DNA from: Pontiella desulfatans
GTDB taxonomy: Bacteria > Verrucomicrobiota > Kiritimatiellia > Kiritimatiellales > Pontiellaceae
Direction of reading: 5' to 3'
NCBI RefSeq assembly: GCF_900890425.1
Contig: NZ_CAAHFG010000005.1
Span: forward strand, 310,001-374,000
DNA length: 64,000 nt
Shown: positions 38,964-47,240 of the stretch, piece after piece
How positions within the stretch are numbered: position 1 is the first letter of the stretch
Layout: each line of letters starts with the position of its first letter
Program-made: the position numbers and the translations under genes
The notes under the pieces: generated by a model
Told to the model about the DNA's origin: nothing
The model's database searches: none
Seen by the model: the letters and a program-made list of their open reading frames with translations, nothing else

Positions 38964-40756
38964 ATCTTCATCCTTTCGCATTTTTTCAGGGTGGTCGAAA
39001 GCCGGTTCAGCAGCGCCTTCATTTCGTCCTGGGGATCGGTTTCGGGTTGGATGCCGTAGCGGCGCTGCTCGATGGTGCTGAAGAGCGATGCAATGGCGTC
39101 CTTTTCATCCGGCACGCGCGCCAGCACGGCCTGCAGGGTAACATCGCCCGGCGGGAGGTTCAGCCGATGCCCGAAATAGTCGGCCAAGGCATTCCACATG
39201 GCTTCATGGAACGCGGCGCCGTCCTGTTTCCGCAGGGCCTGTTCCGCCAGTTGGACATGTTTCCGCGCGGCCTTGGGGGCCTTCTGCCTCCGGGCCAGGG
39301 CAACATTGTTTTGCAGCGTGTTGCGGCGCGCCGTGGTGCCGGCCACGGCCAGGAGCAGCAGGGCGGGCAACGCCAGCAAAACCTTGAATAGGGTGGAGGC
39401 ATGCCAAGCGGTTTCGTTGCTGCCGTTCCATTTCTTGGGCAGGGGCTTGAGGTAGACGATGTCCCGGCCCAGAATCTTGGTTTCCTGTTGGATGGTGCTG
39501 GGCATCGACGCGATCACTTGCGCGGCCTGTTGCGCGACGGCCTGGACCGAAACCGGGAACGGTCCCTGCTTAAGGGTGCGGAAGTCGGTGGTTTTCGTGT
39601 TGAAGTACGAGAACGAAACCGGCGGAATATTGGTGACGCTTCCGGACTTGGGAATCACCACCTGCTCAAAGCGAATCTCGTTCGGGTTCTTCGATTCAAC
39701 GGTTCGGGCGTCGTAGAGCTTGAAGTCGTGGCTGTCGGCGATGGTCGGCGGGGTGATTTGGGAAAGGTTGCCCTCGCCGGCAATGCGCATGCGGATGGTA
39801 ATCGGTTCGCCGGCCTTGACCTCGGTCGGCCCCACTTGGACATCGAAATCAAAAACACCGACGCCCCCCGTGAAGCTTTCCGGCCGCCCCACCGTGGGGA
39901 CGGGGCGCACCCCGATGTCGAGCTTGTTGCAGTCGAGCACCACCGGGCGCGTCTCCTGCCGTCCGAACATATCGCCGAAGAACGGGTCGTCGAACCCCCA
40001 CGAGCGGCGCTGCTGGCGGGGGATCACCACGTTGAGTTGAACTTCCGGCTGGAATGCGAACGTGCCGGCGGTCAAGGTTTTGGCGGTCGTCACCAGGGTG
40101 TAGACATTGAAGATGGAACCCTTGATTTCCTTGCGTTCGCGCCCGGCGATGTTCCACTGGAGCTCCCCATCCATCCCGGTTTCCGGCATGCCGCCGCGAA
40201 TGCTGAAGTTGCCGTCGATCTGGATGCCGTCGCGAATGTGGACCTTGAGTTCCAGACCGAATGGCTCGTGCACGTGCGGCGCTTCGCGGTTGGATGATAT
40301 TTCGGAAAACATCAGCTCGGAGAGTTCCTGGGCTTCCTGGTCGTCGGCCTTCTTGATGACCCTCAGCCGGCCGGTCAGTTCCTTTTCGCCGCCCTTGTAT
40401 TGGGCGATGACGGGGCCAATCGGAAAGTCGCCGGTCTTGGACGGCGTGATGAGATAGCTGTGGATTACCTTCGACGAGCTGCGCATGTTCACGATGCGCG
40501 TTTCCGAGCTTTGCCCTTGGTATTGGATCTTCAGTCCATCGACTTCCGGAAAATCAACCGCGCTGCCCTTGCAGTCGATAAACTCGATCTTCAAGACCGC
40601 CCGGTCCAGCAAACTGATCAACTGCGGCTGGATGCTCATCTGAACGTCCGCCGCAAGGGCGGTTCCCGCACTAGCGAATATCGAATACAGAACAAGGAAT
40701 ATCGAATATCGAACCATCCTTTTCCACAACCTTGCTGCTATTCCTTCGAGATTCAT
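38960..40756 (-). CDS. batD: BatD-like oxygen-tolerance protein
   Basis: The 598-residue exported membrane protein: signal peptide ending TALA-AD, a long beta-sandwich periplasmic region (DUF-type BatD domain; QPQLISLLDRAVLKIEFIDCKG, PSKTGDFPIGPVIAQYKGGEK, VGPTEVKAGEPITIRMRIAGEGNL), a transmembrane helix (LFKVLLALPALLLLAVAGT) and a cytoplasmic helical tail. The signal peptide core (RYSIFLVLYSIF) is encoded by a GAATATC-type repeat arm. Start at 40756 after AAGGAAGA in the other arm; the ATG at 40717 after GGAAAAGG is an alternative. Confidence 0.85.
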   Translation of the reverse strand: MNLEGIAARLWKRMVRYSIFLVLYSIFASAGTALAADVQMSIQPQLISLLDRAVLKIEFIDCKGSAVDFPEVDGLKIQYQGQSSETRIVNMRSSSKVIHSYLITPSKTGDFPIGPVIAQYKGGEKELTGRLRVIKKADDQEAQELSELMFSEISSNREAPHVHEPFGLELKVHIRDGIQIDGNFSIRGGMPETGMDGELQWNIAGRERKEIKGSIFNVYTLVTTAKTLTAGTFAFQPEVQLNVVIPRQQRRSWGFDDPFFGDMFGRQETRPVVLDCNKLDIGVRPVPTVGRPESFTGGVGVFDFDVQVGPTEVKAGEPITIRMRIAGEGNLSQITPPTIADSHDFKLYDARTVESKNPNEIRFEQVVIPKSGSVTNIPPVSFSYFNTKTTDFRTLKQGPFPVSVQAVAQQAAQVIASMPSTIQQETKILGRDIVYLKPLPKKWNGSNETAWHASTLFKVLLALPALLLLAVAGTTARRNTLQNNVALARRQKAPKAARKHVQLAEQALRKQDGAAFHEAMWNALADYFGHRLNLPPGDVTLQAVLARVPDEKDAIASLFSTIEQRRYGIQPETDPQDEMKALLNRLSTTLKKCERMKI

Positions 40757-40784
40757 TCTTCCTTGTTCGTTATTCGTCGTTCAA
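40674..40784. repeat. GAATATC-type palindrome between the BatC-like gene and batD
   Basis: The left arm 40674-40713 is made of GAATATCGAATA units around GAACAAGGAA. The right arm 40752-40784 is an imperfect reverse complement (TTCTTCCTTGTTCGTTATTCG). The left arm encodes the batD signal-peptide core and the right arm supplies the batD ribosome binding site and first ATG. Confidence 0.75.
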
Positions 40785-41350: not shown

Positions 41351-43272
41351 TTTGCCATGTTGGTGGTTGGGAAGAGATCCTGGATAATCTTCAGCACGTC
41401 CTGGTTTTTCTGGATCGTTTCTTCATAGTTTTTTTTCAGGTCGGGTTTCAGGTCGAACGCGTATTTTCGCTCATCCGTCTCGGTTGTCAACCGTTGTGCG
41501 GCCAGCATGTACTGGTAATCGGTAATATATTGCAGTGCGGTCTTCAGGTCGATTTCCGCGGCTTCGACGGCGAGCGCCAGCATTTCCAGCCGCTCCTCGA
41601 TTTTCGGTAGATACTGTTTCGACTCGGGATGCTCCGGGGCCACGTTCTCCATGATGTGCCTGAACTGTTTTTTCGCCAGGCGATAGTTGGCTTGCGCATC
41701 CTTCGCCTTGAACTGCGGGAGCAGCTCCTCCGCCTGGTCGAAATACCACTTGCCCAGGTTATGTTCCAGTTTAAGCCGCAGCTGCTGGGCGCGTTCGAAG
41801 TTTTGCTTGGCCGCGAGGTCGTCCGGTTCCAGCAGCATGCTTTTTTCATACATGTCCATCGCCAGGAACGAGAGCTCGATGGCCATGCCGATCTGCTCCT
41901 GCCCGGTCAGCGCCGTGGTGCGCGCCAGCAGGGCATTGCCCCGGTTGAAGTAGGCCTTCGCCTGCAGCTCCACGTCGGTCGAGCGCAGGGCTTCGTTGTA
42001 GGAATCGGCCGCGGTTTCGAAGTCGCCCGCGCGGTACTGCGCATTACCGAGGTTGTAGTTCCCGATGTCCGCAAACTCCAACGCGGTCTTTTCGAGATGC
42101 TCGATGGCGTTGGTGTAGTCGCCCCGCTTGTAGGCCTTCAGCCCTTTCCGCATCGAAGAGCGCGGCGTATCCTCGGCTTTCACCACGCATGGCAAGAGCA
42201 GGAGGAGTGTAACCGCGAAAGAACGCAAAGATCGCAAGGATTTCCGGTTCGTTGGCTTTTGCGTTCCTTGCGTTCTTTCGCGGTTATAATTGACCGGTCG
42301 AATGGCCGTTTCGATGAGTAGCAGAAGCAGGGCCGCGCCCAGGAACCACTGGAACCGCTCCGTCCAGGATTTCGACATGCGGGCCTCGCGCTCCTCGCGC
42401 TGCAGCTCGGCGATGCCCTGCTGGTAGACGCGCTCCAGTCCAAAGTCGCCCGGGGCGGAGCGGACATAGAAGCCGCCGGTTTCCAAGGCGATCCGTTCGA
42501 GGACGCTTTCGTCCAGCGAGCTCTTCACCACGTTGCCGGTCTTGTCCTTCACGAATCCGTCCGACGTTTGGATCAGCTCGCCTTCCTTGGTGCCGACGCC
42601 GATCGCGAACACGCGGATGTTTTCCTGTTTCAATGCGGGCAGCAGTGCCAGCGGATCGCCGGAGTGCCCTTCGCCATCGGAGATCAGGATAATCACCTTG
42701 TCGGCCTGCGTCTCCTCCGCCTTCTTGAAGCTCTCAATGGAGGTATCCAGCGCCTGGTAAAGATCGGTTCCGCCAATGGGTACGATGCCCGCGTAGATGT
42801 CTTCGAGCATCATCAGGAAGGCGGCATAGTCGATGGTTGCGGGGCATTGCAGGAAGGCGTCGCCGGCAAAGGCCACAATGCCGATGCGGTCGCCGCGCAG
42901 CTCCTTCACCAGATCGCGCACGCCCCATTTGGCCTGCTGCAACCGGTTGGGCTTGATGTCCTGCGCCAGCATGCTCTTCGAGGTGTCGAGCGCAACAATA
43001 ATGCTGAGTCCGCGCTGTTTCACCTCTTCCCATTTAAAGCCCCATTGCGGGCGGGCCAGCGCGGCAATCGCCAGCGCAAGGGCCAGTACGCGAACCAGGT
43101 TCTTGAAGCGCTGGCGACGGGGCGAAAGGCCGGGGAGCATGGTGTTCCACAACGCTACATCGGCCATGCGTTTGAGCAACTGGGCGCGCCGCTTCAGCAT
43201 GAGCCCGGTCAAGAGCAATAGCGGAAGCAGGGCCAGCAGCCACATCAACGTATCTGGATTATGCCATTTCAT
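41347..43272 (-). CDS. batB: BatB VWA protein fused to a TPR protein through a palindrome-derived linker
   Basis: The 641-residue protein. Residues 1-325 are BatB: two N-terminal helices, a VWA domain with the MIDAS motif DTSKS (D96-S100), VIILISDGEGHSGD, and a C-terminal helix (FLGAALLLLLIETAI). Residues about 329-355 are encoded by an AACGCAAAG palindrome (42210-42286). A second hydrophobic segment (SFAVTLLLLLPCVVKA) follows, then TPR repeats (KAYKRGDYTNAIEHLEKTA; GNYNLGNAQYRAGDFETAADSY) and a helical C-terminus. In most bat operons BatB and the TPR protein are separate. The topology would place both VWA and TPR parts in the periplasm. Confidence 0.85.
   Translation of the reverse strand: MKWHNPDTLMWLLALLPLLLLTGLMLKRRAQLLKRMADVALWNTMLPGLSPRRQRFKNLVRVLALALAIAALARPQWGFKWEEVKQRGLSIIVALDTSKSMLAQDIKPNRLQQAKWGVRDLVKELRGDRIGIVAFAGDAFLQCPATIDYAAFLMMLEDIYAGIVPIGGTDLYQALDTSIESFKKAEETQADKVIILISDGEGHSGDPLALLPALKQENIRVFAIGVGTKEGELIQTSDGFVKDKTGNVVKSSLDESVLERIALETGGFYVRSAPGDFGLERVYQQGIAELQREEREARMSKSWTERFQWFLGAALLLLLIETAIRPVNYNRERTQGTQKPTNRKSLRSLRSFAVTLLLLLPCVVKAEDTPRSSMRKGLKAYKRGDYTNAIEHLEKTALEFADIGNYNLGNAQYRAGDFETAADSYNEALRSTDVELQAKAYFNRGNALLARTTALTGQEQIGMAIELSFLAMDMYEKSMLLEPDDLAAKQNFERAQQLRLKLEHNLGKWYFDQAEELLPQFKAKDAQANYRLAKKQFRHIMENVAPEHPESKQYLPKIEERLEMLALAVEAAEIDLKTALQYITDYQYMLAAQRLTTETDERKYAFDLKPDLKKNYEETIQKNQDVLKIIQDLFPTTNMAK
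42210..42286. repeat. AACGCAAAG palindrome inside the batB-TPR frame
   Basis: The left arm 42210-42240 (TAACCGCGAAAGAACGCAAAG...) and the right arm 42257-42286 (TTTTGCGTTCCTTGCGTTCTTTCGCGGTTA, near-perfect reverse complement) have a 16-base loop. The same sequence class is found at 44338, 44796, 45768, 46231, 47159 and 47207. Here it is translated without a stop and joins two protein domains. Confidence 0.85.
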
Positions 43273-43276
43273 TTTT

Positions 43277-43363
43277 CGTATTGCGTGTTGCGTACTGCGT
43301 ATTGCCGAAGAGCCTCCTGATCAAAAGAGGTTTTGCAATACGCAATACGAAGTACGCAGTATC
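43277..43363. repeat. GTATTGCG-type palindrome between batA and batB
   Basis: The left arm 43277-43305 (CGTATTGCGTGTTGCGTACTG...) and the right arm 43335-43363 (GCAATACGCAATACGAAGTAC...) are imperfect reverse complements built of GTATTGCG-like units. It starts 5 bases after the batB ATG, and its outer end contains the batA stop codon, so it fills the junction exactly. Confidence 0.8.
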
Positions 43364-44337: not shown

Positions 44338-44790
44338 TTAGCCGCGAAAGAGCGCAAAGGACGCAAAAGAAAGCAGGAAAGAAAGGGCTTTGGGAATGCT
44401 GGTTGTCCGTTTGGCCTTATCCATCACGAACTTTTTGATTTGGAATTTGTAGGAGCCGAAGTTGATTAGCAAACCATGTTCAAGATTAGCAGACCGTAGG
44501 TAACCAATAAGCTGTGCCTTATGCTCTTCCGAAAAAGTCTTGCAGGCTTTTAGTTCGATGATCAGGACGTCTTCGACAATCAGGTCGGCATAATAGTCGC
44601 CGATTTCAGTTCCGTCTTCGTCAAAGACCTTCAGTGGATGTTGTTGCTTCACATCAAATCCCGCCTTGCGAAGGCGGTGAGCGAGGGCGTTTTCATAAAC
44701 CTTCTCCAAATGACCCGTACCATGGTACTCATGGATCGCATATGACGTTTCTCTTACCAGGTCGCACAGTTCTTTGATTTTCGCCTCCAT
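44338..44790 (-). CDS. GxxExxY protein (PD-(D/E)XK nuclease-like), copy A
   Basis: The 150-residue protein carries the family motif GHLEKVY (GxxExxY) and a PD-(D/E)XK-type core (YYADLIVEDVLIIELKACK, with Asp then Glu-x-Lys), followed by HKAQLIGYLRSANLEHGLLINFG. The family is of unknown function; nuclease activity is predicted only from the fold motif. The C-terminus FASFALFRG is encoded by the repeat arm. AAGGAGAAGG precedes the ATG at 44790, which overlaps the neighbour's TGA. It is clearly paralogous to copy B along its whole length. Confidence 0.85.
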   Translation of the reverse strand: MEAKIKELCDLVRETSYAIHEYHGTGHLEKVYENALAHRLRKAGFDVKQQHPLKVFDEDGTEIGDYYADLIVEDVLIIELKACKTFSEEHKAQLIGYLRSANLEHGLLINFGSYKFQIKKFVMDKAKRTTSIPKALSFLLSFASFALFRG

Positions 44791-44834
44791 CAACCTTCTC
44801 CTTCTTTGGGTTCCCTGCGTTCTCTCGTGGCTAA
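44338..44834. mobile_element. Repeat-bracketed GxxExxY unit A
   Basis: An AACGCAAAG-type left arm (44338-44373) and right arm (44796-44834) face each other in inverted orientation about 420 bases apart, and enclose one gene. TTAGCCGCGAAAGAGCGCAAAGG on the left matches the reverse complement of CCCTGCGTTCTCTCGTGGCTAA on the right at most positions. The left arm encodes the last residues of the enclosed protein, and the right arm encodes the last residues of the upstream BatG-like gene. Confidence 0.65.
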
Positions 44835-45761
44835 CTCCTCAGTCTGTTTGGTTTGTTCAACGAATTGCCGGGTGGTGTTGAAGGCGGATTCCATGGTGGT
44901 GCGGTCGGGGTGGCCCTTGGCAAACTTGACCATGTCGGCCTGGCGCATGAACTCCTGCAGGATGTTGCGCTGGTTGCCATCGAGCTCCGGCGATTTGCTC
45001 ATCTCCTCGACAATCTCTTCGGTGGTTTCGTCCGGGGCGTTGAGCTGGAAGCGCCCTTCGAGATAGGTGCGCAGAATCATGGAAAGTTCGGTGTAGAACG
45101 GGTTGCATTCGTCCTTTTCGAGCAGCCCCTTCCGCATCAATGCGTCCAATGCCTTGAAGGCGACGACGTGCGGTGGAACCGGTGGCGCTTTCGGAACGAG
45201 CGTCTCGCGGTTTTTCCAGAGCTTCGAAGTAACCAGGCCCACTAAAAAGGCAACCACGGCCGATCCGAGTACGATCCAGATCCACGGTGGAATCCGCCCC
45301 GGAAGCTTGTGGACTTTTTTGATGTCGGCGATCTCGCTTGAAGATATTTGGCCGAGGCTGCTGACGACGCGGATGGTTGTTTCGGGGAAGGCATTGGTTA
45401 AAGCTTTGCCACCCATGCGGTAAACGACGGGATTGGTCGTTAGCACATGTTCGCCCAGGCGGAAGGAGGTGAGGGTGTAGATGGTTTCCGTTAGAACGTT
45501 CCCGTCCGCGAGCGGCGTGCTTTCCCAATCGCGCTTAAGGACAACGATATCCTTTTCGTGGCCGATCTCCGGCAGTTCAACCACACCGTTGCTTGGACAG
45601 ATCGTCGTGATGGAAAGCTCCACCTGATCGCCGATCATGATCGATTCGTGTGGAAGCGAAACGTCCAAGTTCAGCTCCATGGCATGAATGGTTGCCGATA
45701 TGCAGAGCAGGTATAGGCCCGCGACTGCTAGTCGATTCAGAATGTGGCTTGGGTGGCGCAT
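44790..45761 (-). CDS. BatG-like membrane protein (Ig-like plus DUF4381-like tail)
   Basis: The 323-residue protein: signal peptide (LAVAGLYLLCISATIHA), a beta-rich exported domain (SLPHESIMIGDQVELSITTICPSNGVVELPEIG), one transmembrane helix (IPPWIWIVLGSAVVAFLVGLV) and a cytoplasmic helical domain (FKALDALMRKGLLEKDECNPFYTELSMILRTYLEGRF, TTEEIVEEM) resembling DUF4381 proteins near DUF58/VWA genes. The position between DUF58 and batA is that of batG. The last 12 residues (ATRERREPKEGEG) are encoded by the right arm of unit A. Confidence 0.7.
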   Translation of the reverse strand: MRHPSHILNRLAVAGLYLLCISATIHAMELNLDVSLPHESIMIGDQVELSITTICPSNGVVELPEIGHEKDIVVLKRDWESTPLADGNVLTETIYTLTSFRLGEHVLTTNPVVYRMGGKALTNAFPETTIRVVSSLGQISSSEIADIKKVHKLPGRIPPWIWIVLGSAVVAFLVGLVTSKLWKNRETLVPKAPPVPPHVVAFKALDALMRKGLLEKDECNPFYTELSMILRTYLEGRFQLNAPDETTEEIVEEMSKSPELDGNQRNILQEFMRQADMVKFAKGHPDRTTMESAFNTTRQFVEQTKQTEELATRERREPKEGEG

Positions 45762-45767
45762 TTATTA

Positions 45768-46220
45768 TTAACCGCGAAAGAACGCAAGGAACGCAAAGAT
45801 AGGGAGTGGGAAGCTTGTTAGTTTAGTGGCAGGATTGCTTTTTTCGCTTTTGGCGAATTTCTTGATGAAAAATTTGTAGGAGCCGAAGTTGATCAGCAAC
45901 CCGTGTTCTTTGCTTGCTCCTTTCAGGTAGTTGAGTAGTTGGGCTTTATGTTCGTCGTTAATGGATTTGCACGCTTTCAGTTCGATGATGAGTTCACCTT
46001 CGATCAGGAGGTCTGCGAAATATTCGCCGATTTCCGTGCCATCTTCGTCATGGATGATCAAGCGATGTTGTTGTTCAACTTGTAGCCCTGCTTTTCGGAG
46101 ACGGCTGGCAAGTGCATTTTCATAAACTTTTTCAAGGTATCCCGTTCCATGGTATTGGTGGATGGCATACGCGGTTTCGCGAATCTGGTTGCTGAGTTTC
46201 ATAGCTTCATTCGTATCCAT
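45768..46220 (-). CDS. GxxExxY protein (PD-(D/E)XK nuclease-like), copy B
   Basis: The 150-residue protein is the same length as copy A and shows GYLEKVY, YFADLLIEGELIIELKACK and HKAQLLNYLKGASKEHGLLINFGSYKF. The C-terminus FAFLAFFRG is encoded by the repeat arm, the same design as copy A. The start at 46220 has AAGGAGA 6 bases upstream; in-frame codons before it (NRERTQGTQKENG) are only the translated right arm. The two copies differ enough that they are not a recent tandem duplication. Confidence 0.85.
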   Translation of the reverse strand: MDTNEAMKLSNQIRETAYAIHQYHGTGYLEKVYENALASRLRKAGLQVEQQHRLIIHDEDGTEIGEYFADLLIEGELIIELKACKSINDEHKAQLLNYLKGASKEHGLLINFGSYKFFIKKFAKSEKSNPATKLTSFPLPIFAFLAFFRG

Positions 46221-46261
46221 ACCATTCTCCTTTTGCGTTCCTTGCGTTCTTTCGCGGTTAA
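45768..46261. mobile_element. Repeat-bracketed GxxExxY unit B
   Basis: The left arm 45768-45803 (TTAACCGCGAAAGAACGCAAGG...) and the right arm 46231-46261 (TTTTGCGTTCCTTGCGTTCTTTCGCGGTTAA) are near-perfect reverse complements about 430 bases apart, enclosing one GxxExxY gene. The unit fits between the DUF58 stop (4 bases away) and the BatG-like start (7 bases away). Confidence 0.7.
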
Positions 46262-47152: not shown

Positions 47153-47158
47153 TTTTTA

Positions 47159-47237
47159 TTAACCGCGAAAGAACGCAGAGAACGCAAAAAAACAGGTGCA
47201 GGGAATCTTTGCGTTCCTTGCGTTCTTTCGCGGTGAA
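47159..47237. repeat. AACGCAAAG palindrome between moxR and the DUF58 gene
   Basis: The left arm 47159-47192 (TTAACCGCGAAAGAACGCAGAG...) and the right arm 47207-47237 (CTTTGCGTTCCTTGCGTTCTTTCGCGGTGAA) form a hairpin with a short loop. It leaves 3 bases to the moxR stop and 6 bases to the DUF58 start. It is an empty version of the arms that bracket the GxxExxY genes. Confidence 0.85.
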
Positions 47238-47240
47238 TTC

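Follow-up and report, generated by a model that had tools for sequence, protein, structure and literature searches.

A GxxExxY gene and the inverted arms on either side of it are probably a single selfish element that the encoded nuclease spreads or maintains by acting on short units within the arms. The assignment to selfish elements is made because the gene almost always lies between inverted arms and because gene-less copies of the arms are scattered. Judged on open-access text, these elements look like a previously undescribed class.

In the window, that is, the whole 64-kb stretch of DNA that was analysed, two minus-strand genes (44338-44790 and 45768-46220), each of 150 codons plus a stop, matched PF13366/TIGR04256 with E values from 1e-32 to 4e-35. 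Their scores of 113-121 bits, against curated cut-offs of 22 and 35 (TIGR04256, GxxExxY / PF13366, PDDEXK_3), place both in the family. Both lie in a MoxR-DUF58-BatD-BatA-BatB operon, the genes of which were named by Pfam and position. The first-pass annotation had described two 150-codon GxxExxY genes between inverted arms, with gene-less hairpins beside them, and all of these were located as listed here:

44338..44834, minus strand: element 1, consisting of arm, GxxExxY gene and arm; inverted arms
44338..44790, minus strand: GxxExxY gene 1, 150 aa (PF13366, E 1.3e-32; TIGR04256, E 2.1e-34)
44338..44367, plus strand: element 1 arm, TTAGCCGCGAAAGAGCGCAAAGGACGCAAA
44805..44834, minus strand: element 1 arm, TTAGCCACGAGAGAACGCAGGGAACCCAAA (reverse strand); this arm doubles as coding sequence for the C-terminus of the upstream BatD-like protein
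45768..46261, minus strand: element 2, consisting of arm, GxxExxY gene and arm; arm score 60, 30/30
45768..46220, minus strand: GxxExxY gene 2, 150 aa (PF13366, E 3.7e-33; TIGR04256, E 3.5e-35)
45768..45797, plus strand: element 2 arm, TTAACCGCGAAAGAACGCAAGGAACGCAAA, a perfect 30/30 match with its partner
46232..46261, minus strand: other arm of element 2, identical to its partner on the reverse strand
42210..42286, no strand assigned: gene-less hairpin of the window arm type at an ancestral gene junction, through which a VWA gene runs in frame into the gene that follows
47158..47238, no strand assigned: gene-less hairpin of the window arm type, flanked by the MoxR and DUF58 genes, with an orthologous hairpin in sister locus L082

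As the first-pass annotation had claimed, the last residues of gene 1 (FALFRG) and gene 2 (AFFRG) are encoded by an arm. The arms of element 1 are collinear but imperfect, weaker than those of element 2 (score 25), and in TGATG the start codon of gene 1 overlaps the preceding gene's stop. In sister species, a gene junction is found where the hairpin at 42210-42286 sits in the in-frame fusion of two genes here. When the 64 kb were searched de novo for inverted repeats, four strong hairpins emerged, namely that of gene 2 and those at 42210-42286, 47158-47238 and 40682-40776. Since the same search of the shuffled window yielded no strong hairpin, the window hairpins are not due to chance. The hairpin at 40682-40776 carries CGAATA-type repeats and lies in a region of overlapping open frames.

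The linkage of gene and arms extends to the entire genome. Fifteen TIGR04256 hits were obtained in 14 genes, two hits sharing one double-domain frame. The arm scores of 12 of these genes were above the maximum (29) of 2,702 control boxes, and the remaining two genes had collinear arms with scores of 24 and 25. Inverted arms thus bracket every GxxExxY gene of the genome (14/14), which answers a check suggested in the first-pass annotation. The further claim that the arms are the same was correct for the window pair only, since the arm sequences vary by gene (CCACGAAG..., GCCAAGACGCAAAGGCGCAAAG, CCACTAATTTTCACTAATCTGCACTAATT, CGCAGAGGCGCGGAGAGCGCAGAGG, GCAACGAATGCATGGAAAGCAACGAAT, ACAGGACTATTGATAACAGGACTATT and others) and the other 12 genes have arms of other sequence.

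Relatives were collected by a contig scan using one genome per species, in which 577 were found and 80 loci were kept, 78 of them with enough flank. An arm pair with a score of at least 28 was present at 54 of the 78 loci (69%), whereas only 17 of 2,340 control boxes from the same loci (0.7%) contained one. The titles of the sampled records named Alpha-, Beta- and Gammaproteobacteria, Bacteroidetes, Planctomycetes, Verrucomicrobia, Acidobacteria, Chloroflexota, Cyanobacteria, Omnitrophota, Hydrogenedentota and others. Records of a plasmid collection showed the same arrangement in Bacteroides, Bernardetia and Sphingomonas, and a weak case in Treponema. Within 800 kb not chosen for GxxExxY, the long-range arm pairs included one GxxExxY element (L286:9482-9934).

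Two observations had been named in advance as evidence against the linkage, namely GxxExxY genes without arms and arms in genomes without the gene. The former do not occur among the 14 genes of the genome; across phyla, arms were present by an inverted-repeat or unit criterion at 98 of 117 loci. The latter are few but not zero. A strict arm pattern of three units, looked for in 289 genomes of the phylum, was found in 107 of the 164 genomes with the gene versus 11 of the 125 without it, and the number of pattern sites was 1,711 in the former and 31 in the latter, while the reversed pattern was nearly absent. The Fisher p value for this co-occurrence (4e-24) is indicative only, because the genomes are related. 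Gene-less hairpins are common in the genome and include GTAG-type REPs, which would fit the idea that the arms arose by chance or are ordinary terminators or REPs flanking small genes. However, the control boxes, the co-occurrence of gene and arms, and a unit grammar and orientation that are the same in many phyla and differ from the grammar at the four-helix genes described below refute this idea, to which we assign practically no probability.

Several loci had unusual forms. Long GxxExxY genes of 264-276 codons lie between near-perfect arms at L012 (G000:C3:576505-577358), L013 and L014, one of which carries two domain copies in one frame. The GxxExxY locus L148 has 84-nt composite arms, in which two periodic blocks surround a 27-nt non-periodic block on both sides, and at L002 tandem gene-less hairpin copies are located directly downstream of the element.

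Presence or absence of the element between relatives, which the first-pass annotation had anticipated, was seen at three unrelated sites. In a comparison of the Bat operon among 20 sister species, element 1 was also found at the BatD/BatA junction of L082 (81% protein identity) and was missing from most sister species, and the site of element 2 was filled in L093 and L094 too and not in the other sister loci read. In other sister species, both junctions were short or held other hairpins. At a Flavobacterium junction examined in 30 loci, 11 gene elements, 10 hairpins of a second arm type and three of a third were found; four loci were unoccupied and two had other contents. The closest Flavobacterium species pairs gave no exact junction, being too diverged or carrying other hairpins. 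At a Thioalkalivibrio junction, seven of 15 species had GxxExxY elements of three types, including a decayed copy of 450 nt in G520, and eight had none, some of these eight sites being collinear and unoccupied. At the occupied site of L335, two left arms follow each other, as though the arm of an older element had been invaded by another.

The species that supplied the unoccupied sites are about 10-17% diverged. Since Thioalkalivibrio species do not have the same bases next to the stop codon, insertion scars there are indistinguishable from host sequence. The empty orthologous sites that the first-pass annotation had said to look for exist, but no clear target-site duplication was seen among 87 elements, where direct repeats at the ends measured 2.2 nt against 1.9 nt by chance, with a slight excess of 2- and 4-nt matches. 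Both neighbours had the orientation of the GxxExxY gene in 66 of the 87 elements and both were opposed in one. In the 66 co-directional cases, the median distance is 7 nt from the upstream stop to the first arm and 11.5 nt from the second arm to the following start. This placement suggests expression by operon read-through, the element probably having no promoter of its own.

The arms consist of tandem CRCNRAG units, neighbours being 8-11 bp apart (most commonly 9), which are oriented toward the gene. On average, 2.1 units per side pointed at the gene and 0.5 in the opposite direction, as compared to 0.15 in control sequence. When the arms of a locus were compared with each other, the unit's C, C, A and G agreed at 98-99% and the spacers at 61-75%, and the mismatches compatible with G-U pairing showed no strand asymmetry (98 vs 92). 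The agreement of the units and the symmetry of the mismatches point to units that are recognised by the protein on DNA rather than to an RNA stem under selection. An RNA-level element similar to the intervening sequences (IVSs) of 23S rRNA, whose arms pair in the transcript and get processed, would suit the sense orientation within operons; moreover, those IVSs of 23S rRNA that carry an S23 ORF are inserted hairpins known to be cleaved by RNase III (PMC4990558). We consider such an element improbable, as the G-U-compatible mismatches are symmetric, the spacers are often unpaired, and the best structural matches of the predicted PD-(D/E)XK fold are DNA enzymes.

In 49 loci, the best match of an arm among 116 was its own partner arm. 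The units also match the protein. When arm states were mapped on a tree of 112 proteins, A/G at unit position 2 required 12 changes, as against a mean of 23.6 and a minimum of 19 in 300 shuffles, and positions 4-5 required 19 (shuffled mean 31, minimum 26). Protein identity correlated with arm similarity (Mantel r 0.38; 0 of 2,000 permutations). The arms are not one sequence; they share a grammar, of which each gene subtype has a private version. These unit variants, which track the protein tree, would provide a natural set of recognition variants for a 120-residue nuclease.

With up to three mismatches allowed, 41 copies of the window arm CGCGAAAGAACGCAAGGAACGCAAA are present in the 8.66-Mb genome. 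The arms of the three gene subtypes tested in this genome had 41, 29 and 39 copies, mostly in close pairs and the majority without a gene, and their reversed patterns gave no matches. In the window subtype, the arms of the gene-less hairpins are near identical, while their loops of 15-36 nt are no more alike than shuffled loops. These hairpins, which the first-pass annotation took for non-autonomous derivatives of the gene element, are therefore not plain internal deletions of it, nor is a simple hairpin what gets copied. Hairpins of the CACTAAT subtype keep intact units while their 3-nt spacers are near random between copies, a pattern that is not explained by a simple transposition burst of one master hairpin. 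Within single CACTAAT hairpins of G000, the spacers of the two arms were less alike than chance (0.17 vs 0.34). The loop of a gene-less hairpin at the DUF58/BatD junction of L079 keeps a ribosome-binding-site-like AAAAGGAG and an ATG; this hairpin may have arisen from a gene element by genuine internal deletion.

Alternatively, the hairpins may be spread by something else, GxxExxY only cutting gene-less hairpins, after which repair copies the gene in. Such homing would account for the gene-bearing and gene-less forms at the same junctions, for one junction being held by different subtypes in different species, for the tandem left arms of L335, and for the excess of arm copies without a gene. 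However, the scarcity of arms in genomes without the gene and the agreement of arm variants with the protein tree suggest that the hairpins depend on the protein, and we regard homing of this kind as unlikely.

GxxExxY is predicted to be a small PD-(D/E)XK nuclease of the Cas4/RecB/lambda-exonuclease fold group. In an alignment of 28 diverse rows, six columns were invariant (E31, Y34, D71, E81, K83 and N112 in first-row numbering), and Q95 and Y99 were nearly so. The catalytic D...ExK (D71, E81 and K83) of PD-(D/E)XK enzymes is intact and lies in the common fold. The structure model (pLDDT 88) was best matched by Cas4 SSO0001 (Foldseek E 1e-4, Z 10.4), followed by other PD-(D/E)XK enzymes including lambda exonuclease and Hjc. 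Conserved cysteines of the Cas4 iron-sulphur type were absent from the alignment. Searches of Pfam and NCBIfam gave only the PF13366/TIGR04256 match and no HUH profile, and the only matches in a sequence search of the PDB, T7 endonuclease I and Cas4, were weak (E about 0.4). A defence role was rejected, as PADLOC gave only weak similarity to Cas4 (E 0.003), and so was a phage role, as PHROGs gave no real match and 2.9 million viral contigs held one relative only. No description of GxxExxY hairpin elements was found in the titles, abstracts and open-access text searched, nor anything in the open-access literature on PDDEXK_3; GxxExxY was mentioned in two open papers, one on a haptophyte-virus genome and another that describes no such element. 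The family is thus spread over many bacterial phyla with no assigned role found in open-access text.

Nine Flavobacterium orthologues had a dN/dS of 0.08, which indicates strong purifying selection. This selection and the reuse of the same junctions could instead reflect a host function, with the nuclease and hairpins domesticated for genome architecture, mRNA ends or recombination control and the arms selected site by site. Units that stay intact while spacers are random, and the stable vertical inheritance of hairpins at the Flavobacterium and Bat junctions, would also be expected of such a system. Against it, the elements are patchy between sister species, one genome holds many private subtypes, the G520 copy has decayed and several GxxExxY hits have internal stops. 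A domesticated system therefore appears somewhat less probable even than homing.

Under the preferred reading of a selfish element, the arms would be inverted arrays of about three short units (CRCNRAG, or subtype variants such as CACTAAT) spaced 8-11 bp, or about one helical turn, apart. The protein would most likely recognise the unit arrays of its own subtype and nick or cut at the units, possibly on an extruded or single-stranded hairpin. Repair or recombination would then copy the arms, sometimes together with the gene, into new intergenic sites, and the matching protein would mobilise or maintain gene-less hairpins in trans. The element would occupy operon gaps in sense orientation, where read-through would serve it. 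DNA binding, cutting and copying by GxxExxY are inferred here, as is movement of the element, for which the route may be transposition or homing into existing hairpins. If GxxExxY drives the hairpins, a role-less family and many unexplained periodic intergenic repeats would have one explanation, and a nuclease that is not a transposase would join the short list of DNA-spreading enzymes.

Rickettsia palindromic elements are palindromic insertions that a protein-coding gene can accommodate in frame, like the hairpin at 42210-42286, although the sequence is different; we know of no protein associated with them. Like GxxExxY elements, REPIN/RAYT systems have short intergenic inverted-repeat hairpins with a protein gene beside or inside the same repeats; a genome contains several subtypes of the repeat, and every subtype has a protein of its own (PMC3116915). 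GxxExxY elements likewise have dispersed hairpins with a subtype-matched protein gene. However, RAYT is a Y1/HUH transposase and GxxExxY a predicted PD-(D/E)XK nuclease without an HUH motif, and the REP arms carry GTAG or CGTC tags (PMC3733652) instead of tandem CRCNRAG at near-helical spacing. Because the protein is unrelated and the arms are built otherwise, GxxExxY elements are not members of the REPIN-RAYT group and are alike in logic. There is strong support for the first-pass proposal of an element that is bounded by arms, has the gene as its coding part and gene-less hairpins as relatives, and resembles RAYT and REP but with an unrelated nuclease. Relative G333 contains both systems: in the same 800 kb, a RAYT-like gene (L286:4885-5472, named by eye from its MPDHVHAL motif) lies between GTAG-tagged REP arms, so that a REPIN-RAYT system coexists with GxxExxY elements there.

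As for other systems, GxxExxY shares with Cas4, lambda exonuclease and RecB nucleases the predicted fold and a putative catalytic D-ExK with QxxxY. Unlike Cas4, it lacks the four iron-sulphur cysteines and has ordinary operon neighbours, and the sequence similarity is weak. GxxExxY elements resemble classical IS elements and MITEs in their presence or absence at orthologous sites, but they have arms private to each subtype instead of common terminal inverted repeats with a target-site duplication. The gene-less hairpins at used junctions would be compatible with a homing endonuclease element. Small mobile sequences are covered in a review (PMC2229807).

A second class of elements was found at the MoxR/DUF58 junction, where seven sister species (L083, L085, L086, L088, L091, L092 and L093) have a four-helix TIGR02436 (S23-like) gene between arms of another kind. 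An arm pair was present at 14 of the 23 testable four-helix loci in the genus, as compared to one of 690 controls. These arms repeat every 7 bp (self-match 0.65 at lag 7 and 0.67 at lag 14) and contain 0.2 CRCNRAG units per locus, versus 4.2 at GxxExxY loci. The four-helix class is therefore a cross-control for the pairing of arm and protein. The IVS of Coxiella 23S rRNA has been called selfish and has an S23 four-helix ORF preceded by tandem GACAGAT heptamers (PMC4990558). Such IVSs share with GxxExxY elements the inverted ends, one small ORF and a proposed selfish or mobile status (PMC4990558). They differ in their unrelated protein, heptamers instead of 8-11-bp units and insertion in rRNA, whereas GxxExxY elements lie between protein genes and have a nuclease ORF; the four-helix elements next to protein genes are the closer match.

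The odds seem to us about even that both classes belong to an unrecognised superclass of bacterial selfish elements, in which inverted arms of tandem short units are combined with at least two unrelated proteins, each having one grammar, and the units are read rather than base pairing. Its members would be GxxExxY nucleases with CRCNRAG units at 8-11 bp and four-helix/S23 proteins with 7-bp units, including rRNA intervening sequences. Since such proteins would read units and not base pairing, the units would persist while spacers and loops were replaced at each copying event. The four-helix/S23 class makes the spread of rRNA intervening sequences directly testable. A gene-less hairpin with CAATACG-type repeats of 7-8 bp, located at 43277-43362 of the window between the BatA-like gene and the next gene, looks like the arms of this class.
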